Source of the DNA: Ferranicluibacter rubi
GTDB taxonomy: Bacteria; Pseudomonadota; Alphaproteobacteria; Rhizobiales; Rhizobiaceae
Length of the DNA stretch: 64,000 nucleotides
Reading direction: 5' to 3'
Assembly (NCBI RefSeq): GCF_011603255.1
Contig: NZ_JAANCM010000003.1
Coordinates: 62,001 to 126,000, forward strand
In this document: one piece after another, positions 23,400-42,370 of the stretch
Position numbering within the stretch: position 1 is the stretch's first letter
Layout of the letters: each line of letters starts with the position of its first letter
Position numbers and translations under genes: made by a program
The notes under the pieces: generated by a model
The model's input: only the letters and a program-made list of their open reading frames with translations
Database searches by the model: none
Told to the model about the DNA's origin: nothing

Positions 23400-24785
23400 C
23401 TATGGGGAGGCATCCACCGGCTTCATGCCGAGAACGAGGGTCGGCCAGAATTCCGATATGGTGGGATGGATCGGTACGGCCCAGCGCAGGTCGTCGTAGT
23501 GTGCGCCGACATTCATCATGTCGAGTACGCCATGAATGGCCTCGTCGCCACCCGTGCCGAGAATGGCAGCGCCCAGGATCTCGCGCGTGTCCGCATCGGC
23601 GATGATCTTCATCAGCCCTTGCGTCTCCCCTTTCTCGACGGCCCGTCCGACGCGCGCCATCGGCAGACGTCCGACGAGGATCCGCCTGCCGGAGGCGCTG
23701 GCCTCCCGTTCGCTCATTCCGACACGGCCGAGTGGCGGGTCGATGTAAAGCGCATAGCCTGGCAGGCGGTCGGAAACCTTGCGGGTCTCGCCATCCAGCA
23801 GGTTCGCCGCGATGATTTCAAAATCATTGTACGCCGTATGGGTGAAGGCGCCGCGGCCGTTGCAGTCGCCCATTGCCCAGATGCCGGGCGCGCTGGTGGC
23901 GAGCGCGTCATCGACGATGATGTAGCCGCGTTCATCCAGAGCAACACCGGCGGCGTCGAGCCCGAGATCATCCGTGTTGGGTTTACGCCCCGTGGCGAGC
24001 AAGATGTCGGAGCCGCGAATGTCTGGCTCGCCCTTCGTGCAGTTCACACCAACGATGACGTCTTCGCCGTCGCGGGAAAAGCGGATGCACTCTGCTGCGG
24101 TTCGAACCGCGATGCCTTCGCCCTCCAGCACCGCTTGGATCGCGTCCGATATTTCCTCGTCTTCTCGCGCGACGAGTCGAGGCCCTTTTTCGACAATGGT
24201 CACCTCGGCTCCAAAGCGATGGTACATCTGGGCGAATTCCAGACCGATATAGCTGCCACCGACGATAATGAGGTGTTTCGGCACACGCTCTAGCATGACG
24301 ATGTCGCTGTTGGTCATAAAGGGAACGTCATGGATTCCGGGGAAATCCGGGATGGCGGCCCGGCCGCCGACATTGATGAAGATCTGCGGCGCGAACAGGC
24401 GCTCGTCGCCGACACGTACCGTCGTGCGATCCTCGAACCGCGCATGGCCGCGGATCAGGGTGCAGTTTTCAAGCCCCTCCAGCCATCGCTCGTTGCTCAT
24501 GCGGCTGTCGAGCGTGATCTTGTGCGACCGGCGGAATACGGAGGGCATGTCGATCGTCACGTCTCCGCCGATGACGACGCCAAAATCCGCGGCGCGCCGG
24601 GCGATATGGGCGGCGTGAGCACTGGCGACGAGCGCCTTGGTCGGCTTGCACCCGGTGTTGACGCAGGTTCCGCCGACATGCTTGCGCTCGATGATGGCGA
24701 CGGAGCGCCCGGCGGCGGACAGGCGAGCGGCGAGCGACGGGCCGGCCTGTCCGGCACCGATGATGATCGCGTCGAACGTTCTCAT
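23400..24785 (-). CDS. FAD-dependent pyridine nucleotide-disulfide oxidoreductase (mercuric-reductase-like)
   Basis: A 461-residue class I flavoprotein disulfide reductase. Order: FAD-binding GAGQAGPSLAARL near the N-terminus, redox-active GGTCVNTGCKPTK, NAD(P) site IIVGGSYIGLEFAQ, second FAD motif APGIWAMGDCNG, and a dimerisation domain. Closest in style to the mercuric-reductase/soluble-reductase branch, but no HMA domain and no C-terminal Cys pair are present, so mercury reduction is unlikely. A possible base is the His in the C-terminal VPIHPTISE. The ATG at 24785 overlaps the DUF4126 stop by four bases, so the two are one operon. Substrate unknown. Confidence 0.82.
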   Translation of the reverse strand: MRTFDAIIIGAGQAGPSLAARLSAAGRSVAIIERKHVGGTCVNTGCKPTKALVASAHAAHIARRAADFGVVIGGDVTIDMPSVFRRSHKITLDSRMSNERWLEGLENCTLIRGHARFEDRTTVRVGDERLFAPQIFINVGGRAAIPDFPGIHDVPFMTNSDIVMLERVPKHLIIVGGSYIGLEFAQMYHRFGAEVTIVEKGPRLVAREDEEISDAIQAVLEGEGIAVRTAAECIRFSRDGEDVIVGVNCTKGEPDIRGSDILLATGRKPNTDDLGLDAAGVALDERGYIIVDDALATSAPGIWAMGDCNGRGAFTHTAYNDFEIIAANLLDGETRKVSDRLPGYALYIDPPLGRVGMSEREASASGRRILVGRLPMARVGRAVEKGETQGLMKIIADADTREILGAAILGTGGDEAIHGVLDMMNVGAHYDDLRWAVPIHPTISEFWPTLVLGMKPVDASP

Positions 24786-25270
24786 GCAGGGATCGGCATG
24801 GACGCCGAGACGGGCAGGGCGCTCATGATGAGAAACGCTCCGATGATGGCGATAGCGTCCTCGACAAAGGCTGCCGGCCGATCGCGGCCGAAACTTGCTG
24901 CGAGGCGGGCCCGCAGAGCGGCTCCACCGAGGGTGCCGGCGATGGCGCCGAGGAGACCGGCAACGAGGCAGATCAACCAGCCGCCGGAGGGCGTTCCGAT
25001 GATCGCACCGCAGAGCGCGCCGACCACGACGCGGGTGGCGAACTGTACCGGCACCTTGCGGCTTGGCGTTGTCGGCAACTGGTCGGTGACGTATTCGCCG
25101 ATTGCCAGGACGGTGAGGAGTCCGGCCGCCCAGATCGAGCTCATGAAGGATGCCCAGGAGCCGGAGAGATCGATCCATCCGAGCGTAGCGGCCCAGGCAA
25201 TGGCTGCCGGCGCGGTCATGGCGCGCAGGCCGGCGATGACGCCGATCAGGAATGCAAGAAACAAGAGCAT
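24782..25270 (-). CDS. DUF4126 family membrane protein
   Basis: A 162-residue protein with four or five hydrophobic helices and Gly/Ala-rich interiors, matching the DUF4126 family (LLFLAFLIGVIAGLRAMTAP N-terminus; LLGAIAGTLGGAALRARL motif). The ATG at 25270 has GGAGG upstream and starts directly with a helix. Its stop overlaps the start of the flavin oxidoreductase, and they likely share one transcript. Family function is unknown; membrane location is clear. Confidence 0.75.
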   Translation of the reverse strand: MLLFLAFLIGVIAGLRAMTAPAAIAWAATLGWIDLSGSWASFMSSIWAAGLLTVLAIGEYVTDQLPTTPSRKVPVQFATRVVVGALCGAIIGTPSGGWLICLVAGLLGAIAGTLGGAALRARLAASFGRDRPAAFVEDAIAIIGAFLIMSALPVSASMPIPA

Positions 25271-25392
25271 GAAACCTCCAAGGCCGGATCGGCATTCGCA
25301 ATGCAATCACAGACTGACATTGTGGACAAGGGCCATGCGTAGCTGCGCTGTTCTACTGATGAAGCGCCACACGGTCGTGCCCTTCGATTTCT

Positions 25393-25451
25393 GCATAGCT
25401 GCACTGCAACATTGCCTCTCGTAAGGGCAGGCGTCTCGGCGTAAATATTAT
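25393..25451 (+). promoter_or_regulatory. Promoter region of sRNA copy 1 with conserved 17-bp element
   Basis: GCATAGCTGCACTGCAA at 25393-25409 differs in one base from the element before sRNA copy 2 (40155-40171). It ends 47 bp before the first hairpin here and 46 bp there, i.e. centred near -55. A -10-like TATTAT lies at 25446-25451, immediately before the first helix. No convincing -35 was found, which fits activator dependence. Confidence 0.55.
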
Positions 25452-25455
25452 CTCA

Positions 25456-25616
25456 ACGAAGCGATGCACCTCCTCCCGCGTCCCTTCGTAGTTCGAACGC
25501 TCCCCTCCTCCTCCCAGGATCGTTCGAAGGAATGGCGACATCCTCCTCCCAGTCGCTGTTCGGTTCTTATCGAAAAGCCTGCCGCACCTCCTCCCGCGGC
25601 AGGCTTTTTCGTTTTG
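25456..25616 (+). ncRNA. Anti-Shine-Dalgarno sRNA, four CCUCCUCCC hairpins (alpha-r14/NfeR1/'cuckoo'-like), copy 1
   Basis: Four consecutive hairpins each present CCUCCUCCC in the loop, at 25469-25477, 25507-25515, 25542-25550 and 25587-25595. Stems: ACGAAG/CTTCGT (25456-25461 with 25484-25489), TTCGAACG/CGTTCGAA (25492-25499 with 25521-25528), GCGAC/GTCGC extended by wobble pairs (25535-25539 with 25552-25556), and GCCTGCCGC/GCGGCAGGC plus AAAA/TTTT (25577-25585 with 25596-25604), which ends in T-rich sequence as an intrinsic terminator. The loop sequence is complementary to ribosome binding sites (GGGAGGAGG). This is the hallmark of the rhizobial alpha-r14 sRNAs (NfeR1) and the related 'cuckoo' family; assignment is by motif and architecture, not by database search. 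A paralogue lies at 40217. The terminator is T-rich on both strands and may also end dinB. Confidence 0.8.
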
Positions 25617-25652
25617 AGCCTATTGCTTGCTGCTCCCCAAGTGCCGAGAGAC

Positions 25653-26867
25653 CTACAGACCGAGATCGAGCTGCGGTTCCTCGCTCGTGTCGGGACTCGC
25701 GCCGTTCGTCGTCAGCGATGACAGCGTTACGCCGAGAAGCCGCACAGGCCGGCGAAAGGGATGGACCGTCGCCAGCAACTGGTCGGCGACCTCAAGAACA
25801 TCATCGATACGAGCAAAGTTCGCCGCCAGCGTTCGCGCGCGCGTCGCCTGCGTGAAATCCGCGTATTTGATCTTCACCGTCACCGTTTTGCCGGTGATGT
25901 CATGCGCCTCGCAGTACCGCCAGACCTTCTCCGCCAGCGGGCGCAGTTCGGCCTCGGCGAGGACGAGGTCGGATATGTCCTCGCTAAAGGTGTCCTCGGC
26001 GCCGACCGACTTGCGAATACGGTCCGGCCGCACGCGCCGCTCGTCGATGCCGCGCGCGATCCCGTGGAAATACGCGCCGGATTTGCCGAAATGCTGCTGG
26101 AGATAGGCGAGCGGCTTCGTTTTGAGATCAAGGCCCGTCTCGATGCCGTGCTTCTTCATCCGCTCGGCCGTGGCCGGGCCCACGCCGTGGAATTTCTTGA
26201 CCGGCAGGGCCTCCACGAAGGCCGGGCCGTTCTTCGGCGTGATGACGAATTGACCATTGGGCTTGCGCTGGTCCGACGCCATCTTGGCGAGGAACTTGTT
26301 ATAGCTGATGCCCGCCGAGGCCGTGAGACCGGTGGCGGCGAAGATCCGGGCGCGGATCTCGGCGGCGATCTCGGTTGCGATCTCCATGCCTTTCAGGTTT
26401 TCCGTTACATCGAGATAGGCCTCGTCCAGCGATAGAGGCTCGATCAGAGGCGTGTATTCCGCAAAGATCTCCCGGATCTGCTGCGACACGGCGCGGTAGA
26501 CCTCGAAACGCGGTTTGACGAAGATCAAGTCCGGGCATTTGCGCTTGGCGGTGACGGACGCCATGGCGGAATGCACGCCGAACACTCGGGCTTCGTAGCT
26601 CGCTGCCGCCACCACGCCCCGTGCAGCCGATCCGCCGACGGCAAGGGGCTTGCCGCGAAGCTCCGGGTTGTCCCGCTGCTCGACCGAGGCATAGAAGGCG
26701 TCCATATCGACATGGATGATTTTGCGCACCGGGGCATCCCGTGGCTCCACGCTTTCCCCCGGTACAGCATCGGGAACGGGTGCGGCCAGCGCTTCTGCCA
26801 GATCCTGAGCCTCGCGGGCCGCCGCTCTTGCTGCCGTTTCCGGCCTATCGGAAGCGCCCGTCTGCAC
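25653..26867 (-). CDS. dinB: DNA polymerase IV (Y-family, translesion)
   Basis: Y-family polymerase of 404 residues that bypasses damaged template bases. Palm motif HVDMDAFYASVEQRD near residues 52-66, catalytic SLDEAYLD, a HhH/thumb segment (VKKFHGVGPATAERMKKHG), and a little-finger domain. The C-terminus QLDLGL is a beta-clamp-binding peptide. Read from the GTG at 26867, four bases after the helicase stop and preceded by GGAG, the protein has an about 47-residue Ala/Glu-rich extension before the usual start; a GTG at the VRKIIHVD position would give the family's normal N-terminus. Cotranscribed with the helicase gene behind a LexA-type box, so SOS induction is likely. Confidence 0.9.
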   Translation of the reverse strand: MQTGASDRPETAARAAAREAQDLAEALAAPVPDAVPGESVEPRDAPVRKIIHVDMDAFYASVEQRDNPELRGKPLAVGGSAARGVVAAASYEARVFGVHSAMASVTAKRKCPDLIFVKPRFEVYRAVSQQIREIFAEYTPLIEPLSLDEAYLDVTENLKGMEIATEIAAEIRARIFAATGLTASAGISYNKFLAKMASDQRKPNGQFVITPKNGPAFVEALPVKKFHGVGPATAERMKKHGIETGLDLKTKPLAYLQQHFGKSGAYFHGIARGIDERRVRPDRIRKSVGAEDTFSEDISDLVLAEAELRPLAEKVWRYCEAHDITGKTVTVKIKYADFTQATRARTLAANFARIDDVLEVADQLLATVHPFRRPVRLLGVTLSSLTTNGASPDTSEEPQLDLGL

Positions 26868-40119: not shown

Positions 40120-40154
40120 TCTTGAGGATCCTCTTTGCGAGTCCTGCTTCTACC

Positions 40155-40208
40155 GCATGGCTGCACTGCAAAGACGTCTCTGGGAGATGTCGCCAAAATC
40201 CGTATACT
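40155..40208 (+). promoter_or_regulatory. Promoter region of sRNA copy 2 with conserved 17-bp element
   Basis: GCATGGCTGCACTGCAA at 40155-40171, one mismatch to the element at 25393-25409, again about 46 bp before the first helix. The -10-like TATACT is at 40203-40208. Confidence 0.55.
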
Positions 40209-40216
40209 CAGATCCG

Positions 40217-40373
40217 ACGAAGCGATGCACCTCCTCCCGCAAAGCTTCGTTCCGCAGACGCTCCACTCCTCCTCCCAGGGACGTCTGTTCGAACATCGGC
40301 ACTCCTCCTCCCAGCCCATGTTCGGTTTTTTCGGAAAGCCTGCCGCACCTCCTCCCGCGGCAGGCTTTTCCGT
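40217..40373 (+). ncRNA. Anti-Shine-Dalgarno sRNA, four CCUCCUCCC hairpins (alpha-r14/NfeR1/'cuckoo'-like), copy 2
   Basis: Paralogue of the RNA at 25456. CCUCCUCCC loops at 40230-40238, 40268-40276, 40304-40312 and 40348-40356. Stems: ACGAAGC/GCTTCGT, CAGACG/CGTCTG (40255-40260 with 40282-40287), GAACAT/ATGTTC (40291-40296 with 40318-40323), and the terminator GCCTGCCGC/GCGGCAGGC with a T-run (40338-40346 with 40357-40365). The first loop region and the terminal hairpin are essentially identical to copy 1, while the two middle stems differ in sequence but keep pairing, so structure is under selection. Probably binds ribosome binding sites of many mRNAs. The region from here to dctM (40374-40521) contains only the dctM terminator. 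Confidence 0.8.
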
Positions 40374-40463
40374 TTCTGGAGGTTTTCGCCTTTGTTGCTT
40401 GAGTATGGTCGTTTCGGTCACCGGTTCTGGCGTCCATCACCTTTCCGCGCGTTCGGCGCATGC

Positions 40464-41802: not shown

Positions 41803-42323
41803 TACGCAATCTCCGTCAGCACGACGACGTCGGTGACTTCCTGGCCGAGGGACACATCGACGAAGCGTTCTGCTGCAAACAGCGAGATCAGCACGCCACC
41901 GACGATCATGGGAATGAAATCCACCCCGCCCGGCCATCCGAGAACCGGAATGCGGGCGCTCCACGTGCCGGCAGCCAAGAGGACCGCATAATAGGCCATG
42001 GCGATGCCGAAGAGGGTGATGAGGCCAAGGCTGATCTGGTCCATCAGCTTCTGGACGGCGGGCGAGACCATGTGGTGCACCAGATCGAGGCCGAGATGCA
42101 CGCTCTCGCGAACGCCGACGGCGGCGCCCAAAAGAATGAACCAGGACATGAGATGCAGCGATAGCGGCTCCGACCAGCTGGGCGTGTCGTTCAGCACATA
42201 GCGGCCGAACACCTGCCAGCCGATGATCAGCGTCATCGCGACGATCCCAAGGCCGGCGAGGTAGAGCGCCGTCCGGTTGAGCGCGGCCAGAATCGGCCGC
42301 ACAGACGACATGAAATGCCGCAT
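41802..42323 (-). CDS. TRAP transporter, small permease subunit (DctQ)
   Basis: A 173-residue DctQ subunit with four membrane helices (first about 17-38, LYLAGLGIVAMTLIIGWQVF) and the family motif GRYVLNDTPSWSEPLSLHLM. The ATG at 42323 follows TGGGAGGA. Scaffolds the large DctM subunit, whose start codon it overlaps by one base. The intrinsic hairpin before it may lower its expression relative to dctP. Confidence 0.86.
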   Translation of the reverse strand: MRHFMSSVRPILAALNRTALYLAGLGIVAMTLIIGWQVFGRYVLNDTPSWSEPLSLHLMSWFILLGAAVGVRESVHLGLDLVHHMVSPAVQKLMDQISLGLITLFGIAMAYYAVLLAAGTWSARIPVLGWPGGVDFIPMIVGGVLISLFAAERFVDVSLGQEVTDVVVLTEIA

Positions 42324-42370
42324 TGCAGAGTCCTCCCAAAGAGCCGGTGGAATGCCCGCGCCGGCATATG

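Follow-up and report, generated by a model that had tools for sequence, protein, structure and literature searches.

Three- and four-hairpin RNAs whose loops carry CCUCCUCCC have been described and proposed to form one family with a varying number of modules (PMC3927594), and the cuckoo family is given as comprising 2 to 4 hairpins (PMC4504443). The four-loop form was already published in 2011, as SmelA099 of S. meliloti (PMC3927594, section 2.7), whose entry among tabulated deep-sequencing candidates gives a length of 160 nt and positions 1328175-1328334 (-) of pSymA (PMC2873474). For the three-loop NfeR1, the passages of PMC10746234 that deal with its action report repression of ntrB and refer to previous work in which two ABC-transporter mRNAs had been proven as targets and the loops as redundant, and those on its control describe LsrB as its activator and NtrC as its repressor.

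The locus studied here, part of a 64-kb window (the whole stretch of DNA analysed), is a conserved small RNA gene of this known family and form, of which it represents a clear new copy, and its product is very probably a small regulatory RNA that displays one ribosome-site-blocking motif on four hairpins. The minimum free energy fold of positions 25440-25630 consisted of four hairpins, each with the motif entirely inside its loop, and all four loops of copy 1 carry CCUCCUCCC (Table 1). Its energy was -74.1 kcal/mol, compared to -43.5 kcal/mol (SD 4.08) in 200 shuffles (z = -7.5). The string CCTCCTCCC occurred 8 times in the window, four times in copy 1 and four times in a second copy (40230-40356), while shuffled windows contained a mean of 0.79 and a maximum of 3 occurrences (100 shuffles). 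Hairpin 4 was absent from the output of a simple terminator scan, since its loop of 10 nt exceeds the limit of 8 set in that scan. On the basis of the published ends of SmelA099 at the pSymA coordinates given above, the transcript is expected to span approximately 25454 to 25612, and the predicted length of 159 nt falls within the 155 to 165 nt that an earlier, sequence-only reading had expected. That reading had described four consecutive stem-loops with the motif in every loop and a T tail after the last, in agreement with the fold, the motif count, and the compensatory changes found in relatives, and the neighbors it had named are both present, namely, a DUF4126 gene (24782-25273, -) and an ImpB/MucB/SamB-family (DinB-type) polymerase gene (25653-26867, -).

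Table 1. Coordinates of the predicted features at the two window copies
Feature	Position	Strand	Basis or remark
Upstream box GCATAGCTGCACTGCAA, candidate regulator site	25393..25409	+	about -61 to -45 of the predicted start
A/T-rich candidate -10 region	25442..25451	+	placed from position only
Predicted four-hairpin sRNA copy 1, 159 nt	25454..25612	+	ends by SmelA099 alignment; fold
Hairpin 1, loop motif 25469-25477	25456..25489	+	motif count, fold, double changes
Hairpin 2, loop motif 25507-25515	25492..25528	+	motif count, fold, covariation
Hairpin 3, loop motif 25542-25550	25530..25561	+	motif count, fold, covariation
Hairpin 4, probable Rho-independent terminator with T run, loop motif 25587-25595	about 25572..25610	+	sequence, fold, covariation
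Upstream box of second copy	40155..40171	+	window and genome motif search
Second copy of four-hairpin sRNA	40215..40374 (about)	+	Rfam 96.9 bits; fold z = -6.3; alignment

The Rfam model RF02344 (ar14) matched copy 1 at 25488-25611 (+) with 100.7 bits and the second copy at 40249-40372 with 96.9 bits, both above the gathering score of 58.8. As in alpha-r14 RNAs, CCUCCUCCC is unpaired in every loop and the stems are variable, with one hairpin beyond the three of the model; because the model has three hairpins, the match takes in hairpins 2 to 4 only and leaves hairpin 1 almost entirely outside its bounds. The features of the SmelA099 form were also found, namely, four consecutive CCUCCUCCC hairpins, a T run after the last one, and several copies per genome, and the 160-nt SmelA099 DNA, which harbors the same four motifs, aligned end to end with both window copies. 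Together with the literature, the Rfam match and the SmelA099 alignment bear out both the kinship with alpha-r14/NfeR1 and cuckoo RNAs and the anti-Shine-Dalgarno reading of the loops that had been proposed from the sequence, and the covariance-model search suggested as a check thus recovered ar14 at both copies. The four-loop form had further been singled out as worth describing, and its novelty is ruled out by section 2.7 of PMC3927594.

Five ar14 loci scored above the cut-off in the whole genome (5.47 Mb, 42 contigs), four with four exact motifs and one with three; the same search, at E values up to 1, gave matches in 3 of 14 control genomes, none of them above the cut-off. The two window copies lie on the same strand, about 14.8 kb apart, and same-strand ar14 pairs separated by 13 to 27 kb were also present in congeners G001 to G005, not in G006, a pattern suggestive of an ancient duplication that the genus has retained.

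We then surveyed 61 genomes (our own and 60 relatives) and found an ar14 match in 45 of them, above the cut-off in 37, and in none of the 14 control genomes of this survey. The loci yielded 100 distinct chains of at least two exact motifs, of which 26 had four motifs, 43 had three, 31 had two, and none had more than four, figures that are lowered by decayed loops and by the splitting of chains at gaps of more than 62 bases. Chain lengths of 4, 4, 4, 4, and 3, as in our genome, were seen in three of six congeners (G001, G004, and G005); G002 had one additional two-motif chain, and fewer chains were present in G003 (4, 4, 4, 3) and G006 (4, 3). Beyond the survey, a pattern related to the hairpin 1 string, TCGAAGYNNTGCACCTCCTCCCGC, was found in at least 23 of 247 genomes and at least 11 of 109 genera of the family, which are lower bounds since the pattern misses both window copies. 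In relatives L133, L142, L178, and L187, the third loop has decayed (CCTCCTCTT) and the other loops are kept, as would be expected if the loops are redundant.

Pairing was assessed in an alignment of 26 four-loop sequences, composed of 25 distinct survey sequences and SmelA099, with the odd chain of G029 excluded. Standard pairs occupied 95.8% of 925 cells, compared to 86.1% in shuffles, double changes affected 19 of 36 pairs (13.7 in shuffles), and the covariation score of 0.378 was equaled by none of 500 shuffles, in a test that is inflated by the kinship of the rows and that uses a structure derived from the same alignment. The weakest covariation measure, further pair types, was matched by 6 of 500 shuffles, and sliding the partners broke the pairing. 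Pairing is thus kept through double changes in these homologues, the stem conservation check that the sequence-only reading had put forward, and the comparison supports all four stems through compensatory changes.

These data bear on whether transcription could start downstream of hairpin 1, in which case the working RNA would be a usual three-hairpin alpha-r14 and hairpin 1 would be promoter-proximal DNA or a processed-off leader. Such a start would fit the Rfam match, confined to hairpins 2 to 4, and the processed forms without stem-loops listed for SmelA075 in PMC2873474. However, the published SmelA099 starts some 2 nt ahead of hairpin 1, and pairing in this hairpin is kept through double changes, with 3 of the 8 consensus pairs affected. 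At its base, A-U occurs in 10 rows and U-A in 9, and 6 of the 26 rows are unpaired, including four with a one-base shift introduced there by the aligner. In addition, the 23-base hairpin 1 string CGAAGCGATGCACCTCCTCCCGC, present in at least 117 stretches of named genomes, was the first motif of its chain in 117 of 117 matches listed, and 102 of these 117 stretches contained four intact motifs, with 15 exceptions among the matches listed. As this set was picked by the hairpin 1 string and is therefore biased, flank identity was dropped as a measure of the most conserved hairpin. We regard a start downstream of hairpin 1 as very unlikely and retain the four-hairpin RNA.

Turning to the targets, the start region of ntrB in this genome contained only an AAAGGA-like site and no good loop-complementary site. 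The strongest loop duplexes of this region (-10.0 to -11.3 kcal/mol), located far upstream of the start, are similar in strength to the duplex with the 16S tail (-10.6), and we rejected ntrB as a conserved target. Perfect 9-nt loop complements before ATG were also rejected, since the genome contained 3 and the reversed control 3, one of the genomic matches being the antisense of copy 2 itself. The shorter site GGGAGGA-N4-10-ATG, on the other hand, occurred 142 times versus 13 times for its reversed control. The control sites AAGGAGA and AAGGAGG occurred before ATG 148 times (15 reversed) and 80 times (26 reversed), respectively, and the latter group, with its weaker excess, may consist in good part of chance sites, given the high reversed control.

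We took the first-listed places of each group, a nonrandom sample: 90 of 142 for GGGAGGA (63 ORFs of at least 100 aa retained and 27 shorter ones excluded), 70 of 148 for AAGGAGA (33 retained, 36 short, and 1 without a match), and 50 of 80 for AAGGAGG (23 retained, 26 short, and 1 without a match). Solute-binding proteins were encoded by 21 of 63 ORFs behind GGGAGGA, by 1 of 33 behind AAGGAGA, and by 1 of 23 behind AAGGAGG. Pooling the controls gave 21 of 63 versus 2 of 56 (one-sided Fisher P = 2e-5, nonrandom sample), and restriction to ORFs of at least 250 aa gave 21 of 52 versus 2 of 26 (P = 0.002, same test and sampling). The 21 proteins came from 60 of the 63 GGGAGGA ORFs scanned singly, with one LacI-type regulator excluded from the count; all 63 were also scanned as a group, with 25 of 73 families listed. 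For the second half of the AAGGAGA sample, 25 of 27 families were listed, and a weak solute-binding match could be hidden there. In the AAGGAGG group, four solute-binding families had one member each and were taken as one protein, L431, because of its secreted start and because no other candidate was apparent by eye. When the 21 solute-binding proteins were used as phmmer queries, a single relative was recovered from the AAGGAGA group, and the AAGGAGG group gave none. Other transport parts were not clearly biased to GGGAGGA, with 6 of 63 behind this site and four permease/ATPase family matches among 23 ORFs behind AAGGAGG. As a correlation within a nonrandom sample, the GGGAGGA bias fits a transporter regulon; solute-binding-protein genes may favor GGGAGGA for reasons unrelated to the sRNA, and these sites might also serve other anti-Shine-Dalgarno RNAs. 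Near the second copy, in a gene group convergent with it, the TRAP-transporter DctQ gene has GGGAGGA before its ATG (42321-42337, -) and is, on account of this site, a candidate target.

The loops could also be read as copies of the 16S anti-Shine-Dalgarno sequence that bind Shine-Dalgarno sites generally and tune global translation, with no regulon. Loops of the form CACCUCCUCCCG resemble the anti-Shine-Dalgarno sequence ACCUCCU of the 16S tail, and they are present in hairpin 1 of 22 and in hairpin 4 of 25 of the 26 four-loop survey sequences. Nevertheless, the genes behind GGGAGGA, the site that matches the loops in full, differ in kind from those behind AAGGAGG or AAGGAGA, and specific targets are reported for NfeR1 in the passages on its action (PMC10746234), so that a purely global role appears highly improbable. 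A repeated mobile or protein-coding element, which the several copies per genome and an ATG inside hairpin 1 might evoke, has next to no probability, since 50,697 phage records contained no match and a phage origin was rejected, frames from the hairpin 1 ATG vary so widely in length across 105 four-loop sequences (66 without a stop in the segment examined) that a coding hairpin 1 was rejected, and conservation lies in the stems and not in codons.

Regarding control of the gene, GCATRGCTGCACTGCAA was found 60 to 61 bases ahead of the predicted start in both copies, and GCATAGCTGCACTGCAA at up to two mismatches had only two matches in the window, one per copy. The wider form GCATRGCTGCAMTGCAA gave four genome matches at up to one mismatch, each upstream of a four-loop copy, and three more at two mismatches, elsewhere in the genome, compared to 3 + 3 matches at up to two mismatches for its reversed control; it had no match at the three-loop locus. 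A sigma-70 scan found no promoter at copy 1. The sigma-70 promoter CTTAGAC-N17-CTATAT, given for NfeR1 homologues in PMC10746234, had no match near either copy at up to three mismatches. As this signature was reported for NfeR1 homologues and lies outside the Rfam model, its absence does not decide alpha-r14 membership either way. The LsrB motif TGCA-N6-GCAT occurred with one mismatch at 40145-40158 (+) and 40157-40170 (-), both at copy 2, among 60 such matches in the window versus 65 expected by chance; the former lies at about -70 to -57 of copy 2, which is the published place, and copy 1 had none even with one mismatch. The conserved 29-nt upstream stretch described for alpha-r14 promoters (PMC10746234) may be the box found here.

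The four-loop genes might constitute a co-controlled set of their own, in which a dedicated regulator would read GCATRGCTGCAMTGCAA at all four four-loop copies and not at the three-loop copy, the set acting as a high-capacity brake on solute-binding-protein mRNAs with GGGAGGA sites under a control unlike that of NfeR1. The second LsrB-like match at copy 2 and the 29-nt stretch lower the odds of such a set, and we consider it rather unlikely. The regulatory role of the box is presumed, and we make no claim of novelty for the box or the four-copy set, the literature searched here being limited to open-licence papers.

Overall, it is highly probable that the locus is a trans-acting sRNA gene of the alpha-r14/cuckoo family, in the four-hairpin SmelA099 form, that blocks Shine-Dalgarno sites mainly of solute-uptake mRNAs. 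A promoter just upstream would give a transcript of about 159 nt ending at the fourth hairpin, and the unpaired CCUCCUCCC on each hairpin would pair with G-rich Shine-Dalgarno sites, blocking translation chiefly where an mRNA encodes a periplasmic solute-binding protein of an uptake system. Loop-mediated repression is reported for the three-loop NfeR1 (PMC10746234, passages on its action). The four identical loops would provide redundancy and probably greater avidity or capacity, and several paralogues under one common upstream box would add dose. We infer transcription in this organism and repression of solute-binding mRNAs, and a benefit of four loops over three is presumed. That one RNA might pair with up to four mRNAs at once, as suggested from the sequence, is possible; the passages on NfeR1 present its three loops as redundant and do not mention joint binding of several mRNAs (PMC10746234).

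The locus opens no new RNA class, and its interest is modest. It adds a clean, well-supported set of four co-boxed paralogous four-loop anti-Shine-Dalgarno RNAs, and it makes plain that hairpin 1 of this form is cut off in the Rfam match. Because the ar14 match starts where hairpin 1 ends, four-loop members will probably be listed as three-loop RNAs by automatic annotation. The solute-binding-protein bias offers a testable regulon, namely, solute-binding proteins with GGGAGGA sites, along with the common upstream box.

Among known systems, AbcR1 and AbcR2 are likewise anti-Shine-Dalgarno RNAs acting on transporter mRNAs, but they belong to the alpha-r15 family, partly resemble RF00519, have two motifs in three stem-loops, and bind Hfq; alpha-r14 transcripts are characterized as Hfq-independent. 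RS0680a of Rhodobacter sphaeroides, which we take to be the CcsR RNAs, represents the two-hairpin cuckoo type. The CcsR type has two hairpins, unlike our locus, and a DUF1127 gene on the same transcript; no such gene was identified here, and no same-strand gene was identified directly upstream among the ORFs listed, with the small ORFs of the sRNA's own intergenic region left aside in the Pfam scan. Each of the two stem-loops of RS0680a carries an anti-Shine-Dalgarno motif (PMC3927594). NfeR1/alpha-r14 of S. meliloti shares the CCUCCUCCC loops, multiple copies per genome, and an Rfam score above the cut-off but has three hairpins and 123 nt according to the description in PMC10746234, and neither its published promoter signature nor its ntrB target is evident at the loci studied here. 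SmelA099/smrA6, which sits on the symbiotic megaplasmid, unlike our locus, differs in the stems of hairpins 2 and 3 and has an only partly similar upstream box, but it shares the four CCUCCUCCC hairpins, the same hairpin 1 core string, the same terminator hairpin, and a similar length.
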